Part shown: one piece after another, positions 5,826-61,410 of the stretch | Position numbering within the stretch: position 1 is the stretch's first letter | Layout: each line of letters opens with the position of its first letter | Origin: Daphnia carinata | Lineage: Eukaryota > Arthropoda > Branchiopoda > Diplostraca > Daphniidae | Direction: 5' to 3' | Length of the DNA stretch: 64,000 bases | Assembly (NCBI RefSeq): GCF_022539665.2 | Contig: NC_081336.1 | Location: 2,728,001-2,792,000, forward strand | The notes under the pieces: generated by a model | Databases searched by the model: none | The model's input: only the letters and a program-made list of their open reading frames with translations | What the model was told of the DNA's origin: nothing | Made by a program: the position numbers and the translations under genes

Positions 5826-6743
5826 ATCGTCCTGGCCTGTGCGCGCCAGGATGCTCAACAGTTTCGTGCATCATTTAAACGGAAAATTTCCAAATGACAA
5901 CATGTTTTCATTCAAAAAATAGAGGATTAGTATTTATCAAGAAAACTTCAATAACGAGGATCAGATCGACATTTTCCTGCGTTGAAAAAAATTCCTATTA
6001 GGACAATCCCCTGGTCCATAAAAGTAAATGCGTCATCAGATTTCAACCAACGCTAAAACTTGGAGGCAGTTTCAAGAGAAAAAGAGAGAATTTTATTAAA
6101 TTAAAAACTGAATTGGGTTTGTAGATGGGGATGTATACGATATTCTAGTTACGAAAAACAAAAGATGTCGTTGACAGCTAACCTCAGGACTAACGAACGC
6201 GAAAGAAATCTGATAAGAAACGCCCGTTTACTATAAAAATTTTTTGCATCAGACAAGATAGCGAAGAGAGACAAGGACAAAGAATGCAACTAAATCAAAC
6301 TTGGCCGACAGTCACAGCCAAAACGCCTAATTTACCGTAGTGCTCCACTTCGATGACACGTGTGCTATTTACATTATACAGTATATATACGTACATACAT
6401 ACATACTATATACAAGGTTGTTAAGACCACGTTGTACGGTACAAATATGTGCCCCAGACAGTTCTTCTTTTGAATTTTCACCTTGAAAGTTGTGAAAATG
6501 CGCGGAACTGATATTAATTATCGAAGGTCATCTCGCTTAACAATTCTTCCCAACCCTGCAGCTGCTGGACATTTAAAAACTACTGCAATTCCATTTTTCA
6601 AACCAGTCTTGAGTAGGTAGTGCTCTATTATCTGTGTGGCCTGTGTACAAACAGGGCTATTGACCTTTCGAAAAACACGGAAAATTGCTCTGTTTTTCAT
6701 ACAGGACCAGAAGAATTCATATCCTCATTAACTTTGAACTAAG
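5826..6743. other. Spacer unique to the interval between the duplication copies
   Basis: A hairpin with a 7-bp stem (TCCTGGC/GCCAGGA, 8-nt loop) lies at 5830-5851, directly at the duplication breakpoint. A TACATACATAC-type simple repeat lies near 6377-6412. A pyrimidine tract followed by CATACAG near 6705 could be a 3' splice site of an upstream noncoding exon of the next gene. No ORF is supported. Confidence 0.4.
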
Positions 6744-7928
6744 ATGTCAGCCACCCAAAAACTCGAACTTGATTTACCATTCGACTTTAATCCGGATAAG
6801 ATTCTTGAAACGGCTACACCAGAGCAGTGCGCTACCGTACTGACTACCGGTTGTCAGGCTCTTCACGCTCTTTTAGATAAGACAAATGAGCTTACCAACG
6901 AGCAAGCTTACAAAAAGGCTAAAATGGACGCTGCTGAGAAATGGGACCGAGAAAAATGTAGACTGGAAGAAGACGCAAAGCGGGAGAAAGAAAAACTGAA
7001 GAACACTAACGATCATAAAGTCAGGAAATTGGAAGATGAGTTGAATCTCCTTCAAAACCAATTTCAAGTTCTAGAAAACACCATGAAAGACAAAGAAATG
7101 CTTCTAAACAATACCAAAAAGCAGCTCAATGAGCTAAGCGCTTCAGAAATGGAAAAAATTAACAACGCTAGAACCCAAACACGCTCTGAGCTATCTGAGG
7201 AGCTAAATAAATTCAAGGATGATCTAAAAACAGCGAATGACAAACTTGAAAAGGCCAAAGATGATCTTCTTAAAGCTGAGAGGGAATACAGTGCCAATCT
7301 CAAGCAAATGGGAGAAGATAAGCTCATCTCCATTCAAGAAGCAGTCGCAAAAGCGCGTAAAGAACTAGATGACAAAAACCATTTCTTGCAATCGCAATTG
7401 GTCTCGTTAACTGGAAGACAAGCTAATTCAGCTACGAAAGGAAAAGACAATGAAGATGCCTTTGCTAGACTGCTCAACAAGGTTTTTGGCATGAGCCCAT
7501 CCTACAACAGACCGGACAAGATTCATAACAAGTCTGGTGATCACATGGTAGAATGGGAAGGAATGAAAAAAATGATTGAAAATAAGAAGTATGCGAATCG
7601 CGTAACCACTGATCAAGTGAAAAAAGCACTAAGGGATTTCGAATCAAACAAAGACTGCAATATACTAATGTTCGTCAGCGAGGATAGTACTATTATTGGG
7701 CATGAAAGACCCGGTGATTTGGATATCACCCACACCGCGGAGTTTCCCATTAACATAGTGGCAGTTATGATTTCGGCTATTTGGATGGGCAACTTCAGTT
7801 CCAACGAAGATAAGGTGACCTATCTTCAAATGATCGCACAGTTTATCAGAGCCCTGGGTGCCCTACAAGCAAAAGTACTTGCTCATTACAAAAACCAAGG
7901 TAAAGATTTTCATTTCATCTATCCCTGA
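6744..7928 (+). CDS. Coiled-coil protein with PD-(D/E)XK-like nuclease domain
   Basis: A single uninterrupted 394-codon ORF, unlike its intron-rich neighbours. Residues ~50-225 are strongly heptad-like and rich in K, E and L. Residues ~230-300 show the motif order of PD-(D/E)XK nucleases: E237 in KGKDNEDAF, D266 in SGDHMVE, E279-x-K281 in MIENKKY and Q291 in the following helix. This layout recalls the DUF2130-type coiled-coil plus nuclease arrangement of bacteria and phage, but no named family is certain. Residues 379-394 (from nt 7879) come from the duplicated block, that is, from antisense NUDT1 exon 1 plus its 5' flank, which also supplies the stop codon. An acquired gene is possible from the lack of introns. 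The activity is inferred, not shown. Confidence 0.7.
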   Translation: MSATQKLELDLPFDFNPDKILETATPEQCATVLTTGCQALHALLDKTNELTNEQAYKKAKMDAAEKWDREKCRLEEDAKREKEKLKNTNDHKVRKLEDELNLLQNQFQVLENTMKDKEMLLNNTKKQLNELSASEMEKINNARTQTRSELSEELNKFKDDLKTANDKLEKAKDDLLKAEREYSANLKQMGEDKLISIQEAVAKARKELDDKNHFLQSQLVSLTGRQANSATKGKDNEDAFARLLNKVFGMSPSYNRPDKIHNKSGDHMVEWEGMKKMIENKKYANRVTTDQVKKALRDFESNKDCNILMFVSEDSTIIGHERPGDLDITHTAEFPINIVAVMISAIWMGNFSSNEDKVTYLQMIAQFIRALGALQAKVLAHYKNQGKDFHFIYP

Positions 7929-50665: not shown

Positions 50666-52096
50666 ATGGCTTCTGAACTCCAATCCATCTACAGCTACGG
50701 AGTCGATCTGATCAGCATTCTCCAATCCTCGTAAGTATTTAAGTTTTTAAATCAGCATGTGGAATCAATCTAATTTGACAATTTATCGCAACAGATTCCC
50801 TGATGGAGAAAGCTTCTTCATGGACATTTCCAAAATCTTTGATCCGAAATATGTTTTCACTGTTTACTTCCCCATCACCTTCGCACTTCAATGGGCCATT
50901 GGCGTTAAACTGTTAGGCACAATCATCGTCGTTGAATGGCTCAATCAAGTCTTGAAATGGTAAATCAAAAACTTTTGTTATTTGAGCCTTTAAACTCGTC
51001 CTAACTTCCGACATTTTCGGAACAGGCTGATGCACGGTGATCGTCCTTATTGGTGGGTTCACGAGGTAGAAGCCGCTTACAACTCAACGTCGCTTTTACC
51101 CGAGATCTTCCAGTACCGTTCCACCTGTGAAACGGGCCCAGGCATGCCATCCGGCCACTCGATGGCCATGTCCGCAGCCTGGTACGTCGTTGTCCAGTCA
51201 TTCATCGATCGAGTCGTCAAGCCTTCAAAGATGAGGTACGTGTTTTGAGCACTTTTACTACCCATGAATGAATGTATCAGTAATTAACATTTTCGCCGTT
51301 TATAGTGCTTCATTGAAACAGCAATCCATTCAACTCTTGTGGGCCGCTTTCGTCGTCATTCAAACCCTCGTTGTTATGTCGAGGATGTACATCGCTGCCC
51401 ACTTTCCTCATCAATGCGCTCTCGGACTCTTCTTGGGTAAGCAATTCATTCACCATATCAATTAAATCAGATCACGTCTAGTAATCAAATTCTTTTTATT
51501 TCAATCGATTAGGTGTTTCCGTCGCTCACCAAGTCTACGGCTCATCCAAATGGTTGAATCTCCAGCGCCGCCAATGGATGCTCGTCGCCTTCGTCATTAT
51601 GGCCAGCGCTATCGGCACTTATTGGTTCCTGTTGTTGACCGGAAGAAACCCGGCCTGGTCCATCAGCCAAGCTTACAAATGGTGCGCCAAACGCGAATAC
51701 ATCCACGTTGACACCACCCCATTCTACAGTTTGACACGTTACAGCGGTGCAGCTTTCGGCCTGGGTCTCGGCTTAACTTCAACGTAAGATTCAAATTTAA
51801 TTCTATTTAGATATTGAATCGCTTATTTAATTGATCATTTCTTTAATTATATTAACAGATTCTTTAGCCAGACGGAACGTACGAGCTTCACTCGAGTCCA
51901 GATGATGGCCACCTTAGTTTTGGGTCTTCTTCTTGGATTTGGAGCCGAGCTTGCTCACGTTGCCATTCCCAAGACAAACGAGTCGGTGTTTTACGCGCTA
52001 GAATTCCTGCTGAACGTTGCCTTTCCCTACATCGCCATCGCATTGGTACCTTACGCCGTGATGAAGTCTTTAACAGAAAAAGTTAAGTCCTTATAG
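50666..52096 (+). CDS. G6pc: Glucose-6-phosphatase catalytic subunit, copy 2
   Basis: Exons 50666-50730, 50795-50959, 51026-51235, 51306-51436, 51513-51783 and 51859-52096 give 359 aa with the same six exon lengths as copy 1. All active-site motifs are intact (KWLMHGDRPYWW, GMPSGHS, SRMYIAAHFPHQ). Differences concentrate in exons 1-2 and exon 6. Exons 3-5 and their introns are almost identical, which points to gene conversion. The exon 6 region is also the left edge of the unit that carried kinase A into kinase B. Confidence 0.97.
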
Positions 52097-52732
52097 GGTC
52101 ATGCTGCCTGAAAGCACCACACCGACATAGCATGATTAAAACACCACTGACAGTATTCTTTCGATTGAATTTATTTGTTGAGTTCCCTGAATGTAGCTAT
52201 AAATCGCTAGACTTTCCCCCATATACCCCATTTAAACATTGCTTTTTAAAATTGGAAATGTTTTCGTAAACTGTAAATATTTTGTACATGAACAACCCTT
52301 TTCTATCGTTGATTTTATTTCAGACATTTATTAGGACAATGTGACTGTGTCTCAGTTCTCCTAACTATTTGTTTTCACGTGCAAGAGTGTGCCTTATTGG
52401 CGAATAAAAAGAATTTGATTCGTATCGTTTTTTTTACTGTGACACTTGGCTTCATCTTCGGGGGTTCAAAATTTTCCCGCTGTTGCACGAGGGAGCATTA
52501 ACGTCTAAATGTCGGGAACGTTCACCATTAGTACCATAGATAGCGCTGGCGTTGTTACGATAACAGCGTGAACTGAAAGGGAGCAGTTGGTAGTGGAATC
52601 AAGCAAGATAAACAACGTGAATCTTTTGCTGGTGGTCTACTTGTTAAACCAGACCATAGTTGTGAATTTAACAATTGAAATCTATCGTGAAATTGAGTTT
52701 TATGGATTCGTTGCAGGTTACAAGTTACAACA
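52097..52732. other. G6PC-2 3' UTR and kinase A promoter
   Basis: AATAAA near 52404 closes the G6PC-2 transcript. From about 52470 the sequence is conserved with 57180-57443 upstream of kinase B. Confidence 0.6.
52516..52523. promoter_or_regulatory. Conserved palindrome upstream of kinase A
   Basis: GAACGTTC within CGGGAACGTTCAC, 210 bp upstream of the ATG and preserved at 57236-57243 before kinase B. It reads as two inverted nGAAn units, so heat-shock-element-like but with only two units. Confidence 0.4.
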
Positions 52733-55700
52733 ATGTCTTTCATAACAACGCCCCGACGGCACCACTTTCCGTTTCCGATTAAACAGGTCACTCTTGACGT
52801 CCCTATTCAGTTGAAGTTTCTATTCCCGTCAGCAGAACCATTGCATAGCCCATTGGAATCACGTTTTCTAGATGAATTCGACCAAATTGAGCTACTCAGC
52901 AAAGGAGCATTCGGCCATGTTTACGAGGCTAAAAAGAATATGGAGAACAAGAAATACGCTGTCAAGTGCATTAAACTCGGAAAAAATGACGAAGAAATGG
53001 CGGAAGTTACGAGAGAAGTTGAGGTAAGGCCGTGCATTTCTTTCTTTTTTTTTTTTTTTTACCGCCATATCTCATACTTGAATAGTGTAGAGTGACTGGC
53101 CACATTTATCTATTGCCCCCTATTAGTAAAATTGAAATAGAAAGAACAAGAGATAGAAATTTTGAACTATGCTATTCTTGGAATTCGCGACTACAAACTG
53201 TGAACACCAGACTGTTGCATATGTCGTGACTAAACAGTAAATGTTAAAATGGAAATCTTTTTTTTTAAATTTATTTATTAATTTTTCTATTTATTTAGGT
53301 ATTGTCAGGCATAAAACATCATAATATTGTGTCCTACTACACTTCATGGTGGGAGAATCATCCGCCTCCAGAATGGCAGGATAATAATCGGGACGAGGTA
53401 AAAATATTTTTCTACAATTTGAAAGAACAAAATAAAATTTGGAAAGAGCATTTCCGTTAATTGATTAGTTTGCATTTAATCATCGGTTAATTGTTTAATG
53501 CCGTTGCAGGAAAACAGTGGCTATTCCAGTGAAAGTGACGAAATCATTTTTGATTCAAAACGTCTCGAAGAGGCGAATCAGCTTTACGGAAATGATTCTG
53601 TTGAATCTCAGTCGGATGATTTGGCATTGTCGTCCGAGACAAAAAATACTACTGATACTAACCAGGATGTTTCTTGTCATGCTGGAGCAACATCACAAGA
53701 TACGGAATTGTCAGTCCACCCAGCGCAAAATTACACTTATCTTTTCATCCAAATGGAACTGTGCCAAAAAGAAAATTTGGGTGATTGGTTAGACTTCCGA
53801 CAGCCAGCAGAATTGAAAGTTTACCAAATGTTTCGGGAAATTTTGTCAGCAGTGAAATATCTCCACAGCCAGGTTTTTATAACTTTCATCTTTTTTTTAG
53901 TATTTTTTTATTTATCGCATCTACTGGCTTTTTGCAGAATTTGGCCCATCGCGATTTGAAACCCAATAACATTTTCTTCGATTTCGATTGGTCGATTAAA
54001 GTTGGGGATTTTGGTTTGAGTAAAAAAATGACTACGGATCTGGGTTCCCAATCCGCCAGTTTAGCCATTGAACAAACACAATCGAACAGGTTCGATCCCC
54101 ACACCAATTATGTTGGCACTAAACCTTACATGGCACCTGAGCAAGAGAATTCCCGGACGTACAATCATAAAGTGGATGTCTATGCCTTAGCTATAATCCT
54201 CTTCGAAATGAAGATGGATCCATTCAAAACTGACTCTGAGCGTGCAACTTCCATTCACAAATTGAAGTCCTTCCAGCTTCCGTACAACTTTGAACCTGAC
54301 ACTAATTTGGTAACGATATCCACAAATGTTTCACATTATTCTTGAAACTAAATGCGTGTTTTTGAAGAAGGAGCTACTCTATTCTATGCTGTCTGTTGAT
54401 CCAGATAAACGGCCGGAAGTCAAAGACATCCTTTTAGAGTATTTCCCCAAAGACGTTAAACAGTCCAATTCTCGTCCGGTTAAGCCACGTAATGCACCCT
54501 CACCCGCACTCGCACCAATGCGACATGCTGGTGATGTCTTCCATTCAAAATTGTTGACGCTGTTCTTGAGTCGAGGTATTCGACGTGGCTATCAATTTCA
54601 ACTGGGAGCTGACATGCCCGGATTGGGTGGTAAATTTGACGACTTAATTTTCAAGTATTGCGTCAATTCTTCGAATGCTATGAACCCCAGCTGGCGTTAT
54701 CGATTTGTGCAGATCAAGTACAAGCAAGACGAAGCGTCTAAGATAACAGCAATCCAACTGCTCAATAAAAATTTAGGTGATTTTAGCTTGGCGAAATATT
54801 TTCGCTCGTACCTTCACATAACAAGAGCAGGATATGATATCCACGACTGCCTTATTTGCACAAATGTTGGCTTTAATGTGAATAATTTAATCACGAGCGG
54901 CCTTCGGCTAGTCACCGTCAATCCTTCAGACAAAATCTTAACTTTTAAAAATCCGTCAAGAGGACAGAAATCTGCTTCCTACCGACTACAAATCACACCC
55001 CGTTTACGTCAAAAGCTCACCGCAAATTGGTCAGAGATTCACTTGTTGGCTGAAACTTTGGTCCGCTACGCCCAAACTAACAAATCTCTTGCATTGTCCC
55101 TTGACATATTTAAACACAATCACGTTGCTTTGATCAACGAAAGAGTAATCGATTTGGAAACAAAAAAAATTCATTTAGATTTTCTAAATGATGCAAATTT
55201 GTCATCTGGTGCTAAGCACCTACGTCAGATCATCTTTGAATTGAAGATCAAAGAGGAAGATTTGGTCAAGTGGAAATTTAAACTCGGCGCCAACTTTGGG
55301 AAAGGTAACAAAAGCGCAGTTGATTATTTGCCACATACGGTCACAGACGAAGAAATTGATGGATTTTTCGACAAGCTCGTCTTTGCTGTTGACATGCCCA
55401 ACATAGCCAAACTGGATCAAATCCTAACTGACGAGATTGGTCAACATTTTAAATTACTCGGACCTCACATGCTTCAATCAGTATGGGAGCTGTCGCATCG
55501 GAAATTCCTATCGTCGGAAGATGGACAAAAACTGATGGAAGAAAACAAACAAGCCATGATTTTTATTCATTTAAATGCGATTTCTATCGACTATCGGGAT
55601 CGTCTTTGCAAATTTCACAGTCAACACAAACCAGAGGATCTTAAGCAACTGAACAAGGAACTGAAGCAATTTTTGTATCACTCGACTGAAATCAATATTC

Positions 55701-56068
55701 ATATCTTGCGTTTAACTACGACATATCCAAAAAGCACGGCAGTTAAAGTTTTTTCGGCACTAAAAATTTTTCGAGATTTCCGGAAAGAAACTACTTATTT
55801 GATCGCGTCTTCAAAGCGGTTTGAAGACATTGACGAGATGGATCGATGGAAAAAAGCTCTAGAAGCTGGACCGTATCGACTTTTAATCATCGTTTGCAAA
55901 GATAGCGTTCAATTTCAAGAAATATATCACAAACTGATTCTTCATGAAGCATTGAAGAAAAAAGTCATCGTTATCTGCAAAAATCATGAATCGAACGCGT
56001 TGGACAATGGCCAATCAAATACGCAAACAACAGCAGATGGATGGAAGGAAATCAAAGATCATCCATAA
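52733..56068 (+). CDS. PERK/PKR-like eIF2-alpha-type kinase with C-terminal nuclease-like region, copy A (truncated)
   Basis: Exons 52733-53023, 53299-53397, 53510-53872, 53938-54309 and 54368-56068 give 941 aa. Kinase: glycine loop LLSKGAFGHVY, K78 in YAVKCIKL, an acidic ~100-aa insert between beta-4 and beta-5 as in eIF2-alpha kinases, then YLFIQMELCQKENLGDWL, HRDLKPNN (255-262), DFG (275-277) and VGTKPYMAPEQ. There is no ER-luminal domain, transmembrane segment or dsRNA-binding domain. The extension (about 430 onward) has RGIRRGYQFQLG, GGKFDDLIFKY (D466/D467) and YRFVQIKYK (Q490-x-K492), the order seen in Cap4/PD-(D/E)XK-type nuclease cores. A TAA at 56066, where copy B reads TGG, removes the last ~207 residues. 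Nuclease assignment is inference. Confidence 0.82.
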
Positions 56069-56645
56069 CCATTATCGATGTTCCAATGTATCCACAACAG
56101 CGTCGAACAAACAATCATGAAGCATATCGTCCTATCTCTAAATTGCTGACAGAGCCTTGCAACACAGAAATCGCTGGCCTGTTCATCTAAGGAAAAATGA
56201 ACGAAAATGTTTTCTACTTTCAAAAGATGGTGCCAAGAAGCTACGACATTATAAAAAACCAAAAGGTGCCTTCAAATAACGAAGGCTTTTCCGCCTTAGT
56301 CGTACACCTTAGTCAAGTTTACCAGTCAATCCTGCCATCACGTAGATTGCTTAATCCCCAGCACATAGCTGGGATGCAGTTATCTTTTCATAATTCGTTA
56401 TTAACTCTCTATTCTGTTTATCACCCTACCAAAGATATTGATCCGTTGTTGGAATCAGTTTCAACCAATGCCAACATGATGCTTTATACTAATCCACCTG
56501 TTAATCACACAAACGACCGAGATTACTAGTGCAAAAACGTAGCATCATGAAACGGAGGCGACATTCGACACGGAGCAAATGTACACATCAGTAACTTGGA
56601 ACGCCTTGGGACTCAACGTGACAACTCATGTTTTGGTTTTCGGTA
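56069..56645 (+). pseudogene. Decayed C-terminal part of kinase A
   Basis: It aligns with the last ~570 nt of kinase B but carries further stops, for example TAA at about 56188 where B has CAA. ORF 56197-56529 is a surviving piece (PRSYDIIKNQKVPSN, then LLNPQHIAGMQLSFHNSLLT). Homology ends where the G6PC relic begins. Confidence 0.8.
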
Positions 56646-57170
56646 GCGGAGATTGCTCACGTTGCCATTCGCAAATCAAACGTTCAATGTTTTTCAAACT
56701 GAAATTTCAGTTTGAAAATCATCTTTCGCTACATCGCCATCGCATGAGTACCTTGCGCCGCGATGAAATCTTCACTAGAAAATATAAATTCCTTATAATT
56801 CGTGCATTTGCTTCCAGGGGGCACCACGCCAAGATAGTGTTCCCGACACACCACTGACAGTATTCTTTTGATTAGATTTATTTGTTGAATTACCTGAATA
56901 TTGTTTTCAATCGCATAATTTACACTATATAAGATATTCCAATATTTACTCTTTTTAATGGGAAAATTTTTGTTTTATGAGTGATCTATTTCAGATATTT
57001 ACTAGGCCAATGTGACTGTATTTCAATTCACCTAACTAATTTAATTCAATTACAAGATTGTTTATTTTGGTGAATAAAAGTAATTATAGTTATGTCCACG
57101 TTCAATTGTTGTGTTGCACCCAGTCGAAGTTTTCTATTTTTAACTTATGTCCTCCTTCCCGTGAGAGGAT
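56646..57170 (+). pseudogene. G6PC exon 6 and 3' UTR relic
   Basis: GATTGCTCACGTTGCCATTC and CTACATCGCCATCGCATGAG match G6PC-2 exon 6 (51942-52096). CACTGACAGTATTCTTT matches its 3' UTR. A perfect 28-bp palindrome (56691-56718) replaces part of the exon. It marks the left edge of the second (G6PC tail plus kinase) unit. Confidence 0.85.
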
Positions 57171-57235
57171 TAATTTCAAAATGTTCCCGCCGTTGCACGG
57201 GCGAGCTGACAGCGTCTAACACCGGGAACGTTCAC

Positions 57236-57243
57236 AATTAGCA
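57236..57243. promoter_or_regulatory. Conserved palindrome upstream of kinase B
   Basis: GAACGTTC within CGGGAACGTTCAC, 201 bp upstream of the ATG, matching 52516-52523. The following CATAGATNNCGCTGGC string is also shared. Confidence 0.4.
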
Positions 57244-57443
57244 ACATAGATGACGCTGGCACTGTTACGATAACATGTGAGTGGTGTAAGCTAGCCGGCA
57301 GCAACAGCCGCGGTAGTTGGATGTGAATTCGCACCAGAATAACAACGTGGTTTTTTGCTGGTTAGCTGCATTGTGAACGAGATGATAGTCAATTTTGTGA
57401 GCTAAGAGTTTTTATCAAATTGACAGTGTACAAGTTGTTGACA

Positions 57444-60400
57444 ATGACGTTTAACGCTGTACCCCGATCGTCTCATTTAACGTTGCAACAGTTGCTGTAT
57501 TATGACAAGTTTCTCTTCACAAAATCAGACCCATTGCAGAGCCCATCAGCTTCTGGGAAATCACGTTTTCTAGAAGAATTTGATCAAATCGAGTTACTCA
57601 GCAAAGGAGCATTCGGCCATGTTTACAAGGCTAAAAAGAAGATGGAGAACAAGAAGTATGCTGTCAAGTGCATTAAACTCGACAAAAATCACGAAGAAAT
57701 GGCGCAGGACAGCACGAGAGAAGTTAGAGTAGGATTATGTTTCACGCAATTAATTTTGTTGTCTCGATAATGTCTTTTTATCCTGCACTGTGGGACAGTA
57801 TAACGTGTCTGCTAACCTTTTTCGCCCCGTATAGTACTCGGCTCCTACCTCTTTATCTGTAAATTTGAAAAAAGAAAGGGAAGAGATAAAATAGGAATTG
57901 TCTTATCTAAGAAATTATTAATTTGCTGATTGTACAGTAGATGAGAAATCAACAATATTTTTCTTTGCGTTTAGGTACTGTCAGATATAAAACATCGTAA
58001 TATAGTGTTCTACTACAACGCCTGGTACGAGAAGTATCCGCCGCCTCTCGGGCATCACGACGATGGCACGAATGATGTAAACTATTTAAAATTTGTAAAA
58101 GCCAAGGAAAAACATTTATATTGCGTGATAATTTGCATTCTCGGTAAACAGCAATGATAAAATTTGTATTTTCCTTTGCAGGAAAACGGTGACTGCTCGA
58201 GTGAAAGCGATTACAACAGTTTCGATCCTAAACGCCTTGAAGAGGCACAAGAACGTTACGAAAATGTCACACGCCGATCGAATGATTTGACATCCTCTTC
58301 TCAAAGACAAGGTAGCAGTGACACCGACAGTGATGTTTCTCACCGAACTGGAATGAACGATCAAATACCACAACAAGAAAGGCCGCCTATCTCATCTTAC
58401 CAATCTACGGAATCGTCACTGCAGCCATCCGAAAATTACACTTATCTTTACATCCAGATGGAACTGTGCCAACAAGAAAATCTTGCCAATTGGTTGAAGA
58501 CTCGACAACCAAGCAACTTAGAAGTTGATCAAATTTTCCGTGAAATTTTATCAGCAGTAAATTATCTCCACAGCAAGGTTTAAGAAATGGTTTTACTTTT
58601 TCTCTAAACTATTCTGTATTAATCTATTCTTTATGCAGGGTTTGGTCCATCGTGATTTGAAACCAAACAACATTTTGTTCGATTCCGACTGGTCGATTAA
58701 AGTCGGGGACTTTGGTTTGAGTAAAAACATAGCTACGGACGGAGGATGCCAATCCGTTAATTTAAGCACGGAAGAAAAGAAGTCGAACACGTTCGATACC
58801 CGGATGAATCACACCATTTATGTTGGCACTAAACCTTACATGGCACCTGAGCAAGAGAATTCCCAGACGTACGATCACAAAGTGGACGTCTATGCCTTAG
58901 CTATAATCCTCTTCGAACTGAAGATGGGCCCATTCAAAACTGCTTCTGAGCGTGTGAATTCCATCGCCCAATTGAAGTCCTTCCAGCTTTCGCAAGATTT
59001 CAAATGCAGCATTAAATTGGTAAGGATATTCACAGATTTTTTCACAATTTCACTTGAAATTAAGTATGTCATTTAAAGAAACAGTTACTCTACTCTATGC
59101 TGTCTATTGAGCCTGACAAAAGGCCAAAAGTCGAAGACATTCTTTTGGAGCATTTCCCCAAAAAAGTCAAACAGCTCAATGATCGTCCGATTAAACCACC
59201 TAATGCACTCGGCTCCTCCCGTGCACCCCTGCGACATGCTCGTGATATCTTCCATTCCAAATTGTTGATGTTCTTCCTGAACCGAGGTATTCGTCAGGGC
59301 TACGAATTTCACATGGGTGCCAAAATGCCCAGTTTGGGTGGTCAATTTGGCGACTTGGTTTTCAAGTACCACGTCAATTCTTCGGCTGGAAAGAACGGAA
59401 GCTGGCGTTATCTACTCGTACAGGCCAACTACGATCAAGAAGGAACATTTAAAATTACAGCAAAGCAATTGCTCAGTACAAATTCAGGCGATTTTAACTT
59501 GGCGAAACATTTCCGCTCCTACCTTGACATAAGAGAAAGGGGGGACGATATCCACAACTGCATTATTTGCACAAATGTTGGCTTCGATAAAGAAGATCTA
59601 AGCAAGAATGACCTTCTATTAGTTGTCGTCAACCCATCAAACACCATCCCGACTTTTGAAAATCCGCCATCAAGTGGACAGAAAGCTGCTTGCTATCTAC
59701 TACAAATCACCGACCATTTGCGTACAAAATTCACGAAAGATTGGTCAGACATTCCTTTGTTGGCAAAAACTTTGCTCAATTACGCCAAGACTTACGACTT
59801 TTACGCGTTGCGTATTGACGTGCTTAAACGAAATCACCGTGCTTTGGTCAACGAAAGAGTGATTGATTTTAAAACGAAAAAGTTTCATTTGGACTTCGTA
59901 AACAACGTGAATTTATCTCCTGGCGCTTTGCAGCTACGTCAGATTGTCTGTAAATTGATAGGCAATGAACAGATTTTAAGCAAGTGGGACTTTAATCTCG
60001 GCCCTAACTTTGGGAAAGGTAGCAAAAACGCGGTTCATGTTTTACCACCAATGGTAAAGGACGAAGACATCGTCGAATTTTTCAACAAGCTCATCTTTGC
60101 TGTTGACATGCCCAATATAGCTGATCTGGATCAAATCCTAACTGATGAAATTGGTCAACATTTTAAATTACTAGGAGCCCATATGCTTCAGAAAATTTGG
60201 AAGCTGTCCCACCGAAACTTCCTGTCATCCGAAGATGGACTGAAGATATTAGAAGAAAGCAAGCAAACTATGGTTTTAAATAATTTAAATGCCATTTCAG
60301 TGGACTACAGGGATCGTCTTCGCCAATTCCACTGCCAGGACGAACCAGGGAATTTTAAACAACTGAACAAGGAACTTGAGCCATTCCTGCATAAATCCAG

Positions 60401-61410
60401 TGAAAACAATATCCGTGTTTTACGTCTGACTACGACTTCGCCAAAACGTACGGCAGTCAAAGTGTTTTCAGCACTTGAAACTCGGCAAGAGGTAAGAATC
60501 ATATTACTCCAATTAAATAAGTTATTAAATTTCTTTTCAGGAGGAAGGTACTTATTTGACCGTGTCATCAAAGGGGTTGGAAGGACCCGAGAATATGGAG
60601 AAGTGGAAAAATGCCCTAGAAGTTGGACCACACCAACTTCTAATTGTTGTGTGCAAAGATAACGTCCAGTTTCACGAAATCTATGACAAACTAATTCTTC
60701 GTGGAACTTTGAAGAAGAAAGTTATCATCATTTACAAAAATCATGAGTCCCTCGAGTTGAAAAATGGCCAGTCAAACTTGCAAATACCTGTAGACGGATG
60801 GATGGAAATCAAAGATCATCTATGGCCATCAGAGCTCCAATGCATCCACGTTCACGTCGAAGAAACAAACCCAGAAACATTCCGTAATATTTTCAAATTG
60901 TTAGCAGAGCCTTGTACCACAGAAATCGCTGTCCTGTTCGTTCAAGGAAAAATGAACGAAAATATTTCCTGCTTCCAAGAGATGGTGCCTAAAAAATACG
61001 ACGTGATAAGAAACCAAAGCGTGCCTTTAGATAACAAAGGCTTTAGTGCCATAGTCGTACACCGTAGTCTAGTTTACCAGTCAATCCTGCCATCACGTAT
61101 ATTGCTTAATCCCCAGCACATAGCTGGGATTCAGTTATCTTTTTATAATTCTTTATTGACTCTCTATTCTGTTTATCATGATGCCAAAGATATTGATCTC
61201 TTCTTTTCAGAGGCACTTACAACTTGTGCTAACTCAGTACTTTGTACCATTCCACTTGCTAGTCACGCAGGTCATCGAGATTATGAACACACACCTTTGG
61301 TATCCCTAAAAGGAGACGGAATAACGCACGGGGTTGATGTACACATTAAAAATGTGGAACGCCTTATATCTAAATGTGGAAACCAATATGTTCGGTTTTC
61401 GGTGTTTTAA
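57444..61410 (+). CDS. PERK/PKR-like eIF2-alpha-type kinase with C-terminal nuclease-like region, copy B (full length)
   Basis: Exons 57444-57728, 57975-58076, 58182-58577, 58639-59019, 59079-60491 and 60541-61410 give 1148 aa. Kinase: glycine loop 53-61, K75, acidic insert, YLYIQMELCQQENLANWL, HRDLKPNN (265-272), D285-F-G and VGTKPYMAPEQ (323-333). In the extension the motif that is GKFDD...VQIKYK in copy A is GQFGD...VQANYD here, so one acidic residue and the motif lysine are lost. The family-like helical block DEDIVEFFNKLIFAVDMPNI and an extra C-terminal domain (about 860-1148) follow. The 49-nt intron at 60492-60540 is absent in copy A. A role in stress or antiviral translational control is a hypothesis from the kinase type. 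Confidence 0.84.

Follow-up and report, generated by a model that had tools for sequence, protein, structure and literature searches.

The window analyzed here, a stretch of 64,000 nucleotides from Daphnia carinata (NC_081336.1, positions 2,728,001 to 2,792,000 of the forward strand), contains two eIF2-kinase-type genes arranged head-to-tail, in each of which the kinase is followed in frame by a domain with a predicted Cap4/DUF4297-type nuclease fold. Both genes, the domains assigned to them below and the two duplication units lie on the + strand. Copy A (52733-56068; D. carinata LOC130690298) encodes 941 residues in five coding exons (52733-53023, 53299-53397, 53510-53872, 53938-54309 and 54368-56068), and copy B (57444-61410; D. 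carinata LOC130689477) encodes 1148 residues in six (57444-57728, 57975-58076, 58182-58577, 58639-59019, 59079-60491 and 60541-61410), with phase 0 at every exon join in both. Copy A is 99.8% identical over 941 residues to the database record P0001 (Daphnia carinata), a record from which two residues at the start of the last exon are missing, and copy B is 100% identical over 1148 residues to P0009 (Daphnia carinata). These gene models and database copies, together with the kinase motifs described below, confirm a sequence-only reading of this DNA that had proposed two tandem paralogues with a complete eIF2-type kinase, and the C-terminal extensions of ~540 (A) and ~730 (B) residues are close to the 550-740 residues given there.

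The last kinase helices, KELLYSMLSVDPDKRP in copy A (54368-54451, KELLYSMLSVDPDKRP...) and KQLLYSMLSIEPDKRP in copy B, share one open exon with the nuclease-like domain, and kinase and extension are therefore one gene. Fusion records come from D. carinata, D. magna, D. sinensis and D. pulex, so that the fusion proposed from the letters alone is real and also present in the other Daphnia in which it had been suggested to look. A search scored over both the kinase and nuclease parts returned 58 proteins passing 1e-10. Ten of them have both parts (P0001-P0004, P0006-P0009, P0011 and P0012, the last two recorded without the kinase N-lobe), P0005 and P0010 start at the kinase end, and the remaining 46 reach 37-62% query coverage, corresponding to one part. 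All of the 12 fusion-type proteins that bear a name are from Daphnia; within the protein collection searched the fusion is confined to this genus, in line with the lineage specificity proposed earlier. Among the titles and abstract openings listed from open-licence PMC papers (preprints excluded), none reported a fusion of an eIF2-alpha kinase with a nuclease.

The kinase domain of copy A (52850-54451, residues ~40-403) spans exons 1-5. Both copies carry the motifs YAVK, REV, HRDLKPNN, DFG, GTKPYMAPEQ and FKTxSER as well as a long kinase insert rich in S, D and E. When the copy A kinase was compared with PDB sequences, 19 rows ranked above PLK2 (82 bits), at 202 to 112 bits; 17 of these are named GCN2, PERK, HRI or PKR and two have generic kinase names. 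By sequence the kinase belongs to the eIF2-alpha kinase family, with eIF2-alpha phosphorylation as its putative activity. In a kinase tree of 45 rows and 332 columns (leaving out P0001 and P0009, the database copies of A and B, as well as P0005, P0010 and P0012), the nine fusion rows cluster together (100/99) near PERK-type kinases (fork 90/85); several deeper forks are unsettled and long branches are flagged. Neither copy has the N-terminal luminal domain and membrane anchor of PERK (EIF2AK3) proper, the kinase beginning near residue 40 in both. As had been noted from the letters alone, no known eIF2-kinase sensor domain appears in the exon Pfam matches or in the precomputed Pfam lists, those of P0001 and P0009 holding kinase families only.

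As sister of the fusion group, this tree places (joint fork 100/99) a Daphnia kinase that is joined to a Ras-type GTPase. This 'EIF2AK3-like' kinase of 623-633 residues (P0165, P0166, P0168; G000:C6:279396-281624, loci L006-L011) has a Ras-family GTPase at its C-terminus with a Cys-Cys end, and thus represents a second odd eIF2-kinase-type fusion. A search of the source genome with P0168 (E 1e-25) gave at least nine matches: at least six in the kinase-Ras gene, at least one in copy A and one in copy B, and one on C9 that has internal stops.

Fold and candidate catalytic residues of the extension

Structural analysis (structure alignments A1 and A4, of 34 and 41 chosen rows) indicates that the domain following the kinase has a Cap4/DUF4297-type PD-(D/E)XK nuclease fold, as proposed from the letters alone. 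In copy A the modelled domain covers residues 426-568 (54518-54946) and was modelled together with a helical block (residues 570-784, 54950-55594). An NTPase-like alpha/beta region of AAA+-like fold follows (~residues 771-941, 55553-56065), mapped from the model of P0005, in which region 390-560 retrieved AAA+-like rows in a structure search. This region lacks a Walker A motif: all 12 fusion sequences lack the pattern [AG]xxxxGK[ST], which 111 of the 154 non-fusion relatives contain. Copy B contains the Cap4-like domain at residues 440-581 (59232-59657) and ends in a C-terminal tail (residues 953-1148, 60820-61407). Because the part of P0005 that matches this tail is modelled mostly under 55 in predicted local distance difference test (pLDDT) score, no fold is claimed for the tail, an early guess of an exonuclease-phosphatase relic included. 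A KEN/IRE1-type nuclease was considered and rejected, the domain after the kinase having the PD-(D/E)XK fold and exon 5 of either copy giving no KEN-type Pfam match.

In family alignments the motifs, DD and QxK included, occur in the order that had been read from the letters. In a 161-row alignment, which excludes A, B and their database copies and contains many almost identical sequences from Wolbachia, 159 rows have D at the second D of FDD, 160 keep Q and 159 keep K, and E or D occupies the upstream acidic position in 157. The corresponding candidate catalytic residues of copy A are D457 (54611-54613), D467 (54641-54643), Q490 (54710-54712) and K492 (54716-54718), of which D467, Q490 and K492 supply the catalytic D and QxK. 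At the four positions copy B reads K, D, Q and N, with QAN (59421-59429) in place of the QxK of its relatives, and thus lacks an intact catalytic set. The A-type sequences from all three species retain the second D, Q and K, and the same holds for the D. pulex-type copies and for P0005. At the QxK position the B-type sequences of D. carinata, D. magna and D. sinensis read QAN, QAT and HTK, respectively, so that in the last species Q rather than K is altered.

The extension is homologous to the stretch before NACHT in the Daphnia proteins P0013 and P0014 (~480-530 residues, 34-37% identity), and Wolbachia proteins show homology over two blocks, with up to ~38% in the first. The earlier description as a nuclease-like extension holds for the fold and is refined here: the extension is no free-standing graft. 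A whole-family profile retrieved six PDB rows up to E 1 (NLRC4, NLRP3 and an entry named 'Uncharacterized protein' among them), all over the NACHT part, which the fusions lack. By size and host list, and without a sequence match, the domain may perhaps be the N-terminus of gwv_1093 of phage WO. An excerpt of PMC5062602 describes a transfer of this protein between arthropods and Wolbachia phage, does not call it a nuclease, and gives its 137-residue N-terminus as common to mosquitoes, ants, beetles, mealybug, bee and a gammaproteobacterium. The Wolbachia domain (part of P0019) had no match in the phage collection, P0020 found no relative among viral contigs, and a viral structure library gave no match at E 0.001.

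Further observations concern the domain itself. The nuclease domain of the 54368-56068 exon is matched at 5e-8 by phrog_9049 (PHROGs), a phage protein family of 4700 positions whose function is not known. In other family members (P0048, P0082, P0085 and P0126) an OTU or C48 (Ulp1-type) peptidase match occupies the position before the nuclease domain. Clusters of additional nuclease-domain copies with open frames free of stops lie at G000:C6:8078298-8094170 and 9035931-9357325, one copy being the NACHT gene of P0176 (100% match).

Tandem duplication and divergence of copies A and B

Self-comparison of the window detected one tandem duplication with a unit of ~4.7 kb, assembled from several matches at 67-84% identity. 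By their outer edges, the left unit (51933-56644) and the right unit (56633-61403) abut. In an extension tree of 18 rows (12 fusion and six chosen NACHT-type rows), A-type (100/99) and B-type (100/100) sequences form separate groups, each with D. carinata, D. magna and D. sinensis; P0005 stands beside these groups, three D. pulex-type rows lie apart, and the B-type branch is longer. On these sequences, the duplication predates the divergence of the three species.

The A form is ~195 residues shorter than B. As the A-type sequences share one end point across all three species, DGWKEIKDHP (DGWKEIEDHP in D. sinensis), the short form is old. Copy A is followed by a remnant of the B-type tail (56069-56644), whose frame is lost at the stop of A; B-type sequences have kept the tail and carry the damaged catalytic motif. 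The ratio of nonsynonymous to synonymous substitution rates (dN/dS) between A and B is 0.34 (NG86) or 0.50 (YN00) and, among the five stretches compared, peaks in the nuclease domain (0.43/0.69).

Two D. magna records are chimeric. P0007 consists of an A-type kinase and a B-type extension joined near the exon 4/5 border, and could reflect splicing between the tandem genes; P0002 consists of a B-type kinase and an A-type extension joined within the exon-4-encoded part, and could be an assembly product. For this reason the kinase tree groups P0007 with A-type and P0002 with B-type sequences.

At its left edge the duplication takes in 3' sequence of the gene that lies upstream of copy A. By its motif, this gene looks to be of glucose-6-phosphatase/PAP2 type; its 3' end was copied along with the unit and recurs at 56633-57085. 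Elsewhere in the window, a 396-residue open frame (6738-7928) combines a coiled coil with a C-terminal part that, judged by eye, reads like another restriction-type fold and contains GDHMVEW..IENKKY; its matches are weak and of coiled-coil type (LmuB 1e-4, SMC 9e-4).

Candidate roles of the kinase pair

The kinase is joined in frame to the predicted nuclease fold, the helical block and the NTPase-like region without Walker A, and the NACHT or NB-ARC domain and the repeats of many relatives are absent from the fusions. We tentatively favor, at somewhat less than an even chance, the reading that copies A and B are a Daphnia-specific eIF2-alpha-type kinase pair in which the front half of a receptor, resembling those of the nucleotide-binding leucine-rich-repeat (NLR) type, serves as the regulatory part. 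Kinases of the eIF2-alpha family are switched on by dimerization. By analogy with DUF4297-HerA, the nuclease module would assemble into dimers or larger rings on nucleic acid and thereby gather the attached kinases, allowing trans-phosphorylation as in PKR and PERK; the activated kinases would then phosphorylate eIF2-alpha and translation would stop. For DUF4297-HerA, an excerpt of PMC11291478 describes a required dimerization of the nuclease domain, specificity for double-stranded DNA and defence by DNA destruction. The nuclease of copy A is predicted to be active and could, in the same encounter, also cut nucleic acid; copy B would sense or scaffold and, because its catalytic motif is damaged, would signal through its kinase alone. 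The likely setting, which is the least certain step, would be an infection with viruses or with intracellular symbionts, or else DNA in the wrong place, an immune role being suggested by the company that the domain keeps.

A bolder proposal, speculative and somewhat unlikely, is that these proteins represent a fifth kind of eIF2-alpha kinase, which arose in Daphnia by capture of the effector half of an NLR-like receptor, with a nuclease shared with bacterial anti-phage systems and intracellular bacteria. Foreign or misplaced nucleic acid would be both trigger and target, the output would be translation stop together with cutting by copy A, and copy B would be a non-cutting signalling partner. 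If this were true, one animal protein would combine two usually separate immune outputs, the arrest of translation known from PKR and the nuclease attack known from Cap4 or Avs, and would show how eIF2-alpha kinases gain new sensors. As Daphnia magna is a laboratory animal for which gene-knockout tools exist, the idea is directly testable. The arthropod and symbiont domain family is, in addition, now given a predicted fold and likely catalytic residues.

Several observations weigh against a nuclease-coupled eIF2-alpha kinase. In the G-loop of both copies Ser replaces the first glycine, and D. sinensis A has FGD in place of FDD, the more conserved second D being kept. Foldseek alignment of the copy A domain with Cap4 gave a low template modelling score (TM-score) of 0.36-0.37 by query length, with a root-mean-square deviation of 12-13 Å over the full alignment, and the long model a likewise low TM-score of 0.19-0.20. 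In the hhalign comparison of the family (rows over 90 residues) with eight of ten bacterial Cap4-type loci (L017 and L019 dropped), GxxYQ, DD, QxK, T..L and TN align in order, at E-values of 0.061 and, on repeat, 0.085, with a probability below 1% in both cases and controls at 0.18 and 0.49; the nuclease assignment therefore follows from the fold and not from this profile comparison. Pfam, NCBIfam and PADLOC gave no convincing nuclease match for A and B (PADLOC on the extensions: only REase_II at 0.02, in copy B), and a sequence comparison of the extension with PDB gave little or nothing. PF14130 (Cap4_nuclease) had no match at E 1 in the late exons of A and B and none in the source genome, in a search in which the control genomes gave no match either; five Rickettsiales genomes known to carry the domain were likewise without one (0/5). 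The HHpred/Foldseek-type check against Cap4 proposed by the sequence-only reading thus yielded the PD-(D/E)XK fold by structure, together with a weak profile-profile match and no PF14130 match. The NTPase-like region is recognized from its fold, and an hhalign comparison aimed at NB-ARC ancestry was not significant (E 0.12).

Among the alternatives, it is possible, although unlikely, that the proteins are one more lineage-specific eIF2-alpha-type stress kinase with a borrowed scaffold, in which the extension would serve oligomerization or localization only and would neither cut nor sense nucleic acid. The joining of the sister kinase clade to a quite different module, the Ras-type GTPase, the motif damage in copy B and the FGD variant of D. 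sinensis A are consistent with this, yet a pure scaffold would not need the second D, Q and K that persist from the A-type sequences to P0005. We give slightly less credence to a convergent logic like that of IRE1 and RNase L, in which the kinase would act as a switch for a nuclease that provides the main output, kinase dimerization would pair the nucleases, copy A would cut, and eIF2-alpha might not be the main substrate. The kinase-then-nuclease order is the same as in IRE1 and RNase L, and the kinase and nuclease motifs of copy A are intact; DUF4297 nucleases are switched on by dimerization according to the excerpt of PMC11291478. Against it, eIF2-kinase letters such as FKTxSER are retained, and copy B keeps its kinase motifs although its nuclease motif is damaged in all three species, which suggests a kinase kept without nuclease output.

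That the copies are decaying duplicates heading to pseudogenes is very improbable. The lost tail frame of copy A, the lost catalytic K of copy B and the longer B-type branch would fit, but both reading frames are intact in D. carinata, relatives have full-length records, the A end is common to three species, the lesion of B lies in a gene with intact kinase motifs, and dN/dS is below 1; of the local duplication and decay suggested earlier, the tandem duplication stands and simple decay does not. Separate genes merged by a faulty gene model, an alternative in whose favor nothing emerged, can be dismissed, given the open exon that holds both kinase helices and nuclease domain in each copy and the fusion records in other Daphnia.

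Relation to known systems

The favored reading, a kinase pair regulated by the front half of an NLR-like receptor, sets the Daphnia fusions beside several known systems. NACHT or NB-ARC proteins of arthropods and bacterial symbionts have the same domain near the N-terminus, where it leads into a P-loop NTPase, often with TPR or ankyrin repeats, whereas the fusions lack these and have a kinase in front. The nuclease domains of Cap4, DUF4297-HerA, LmuA and Avs3 from bacterial anti-phage defence are among the closest known systems; unlike Cap4-type systems, the fusions have no SAVED match among the Pfam matches of the exons of A and B, no PF14130 match, and a eukaryotic kinase as partner.

IRE1 and RNase L also carry a kinase and then a nuclease in one chain. 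Their nuclease has the KEN fold, in contrast to the predicted PD-(D/E)XK fold of the Daphnia fusions. The Daphnia kinase-Ras fusion (P0165, P0166, P0168) has the sister kinase (support 100/99) and differs in its C-terminal module, a Ras-family GTPase. With GCN2, PERK, PKR and HRI, finally, the fusions share the kinase sequence, the insert, the activation-loop GT-x-x-YM-PEQ and the FxTxxER letters, whereas in place of a known sensor domain they carry a C-terminal nuclease-type module.
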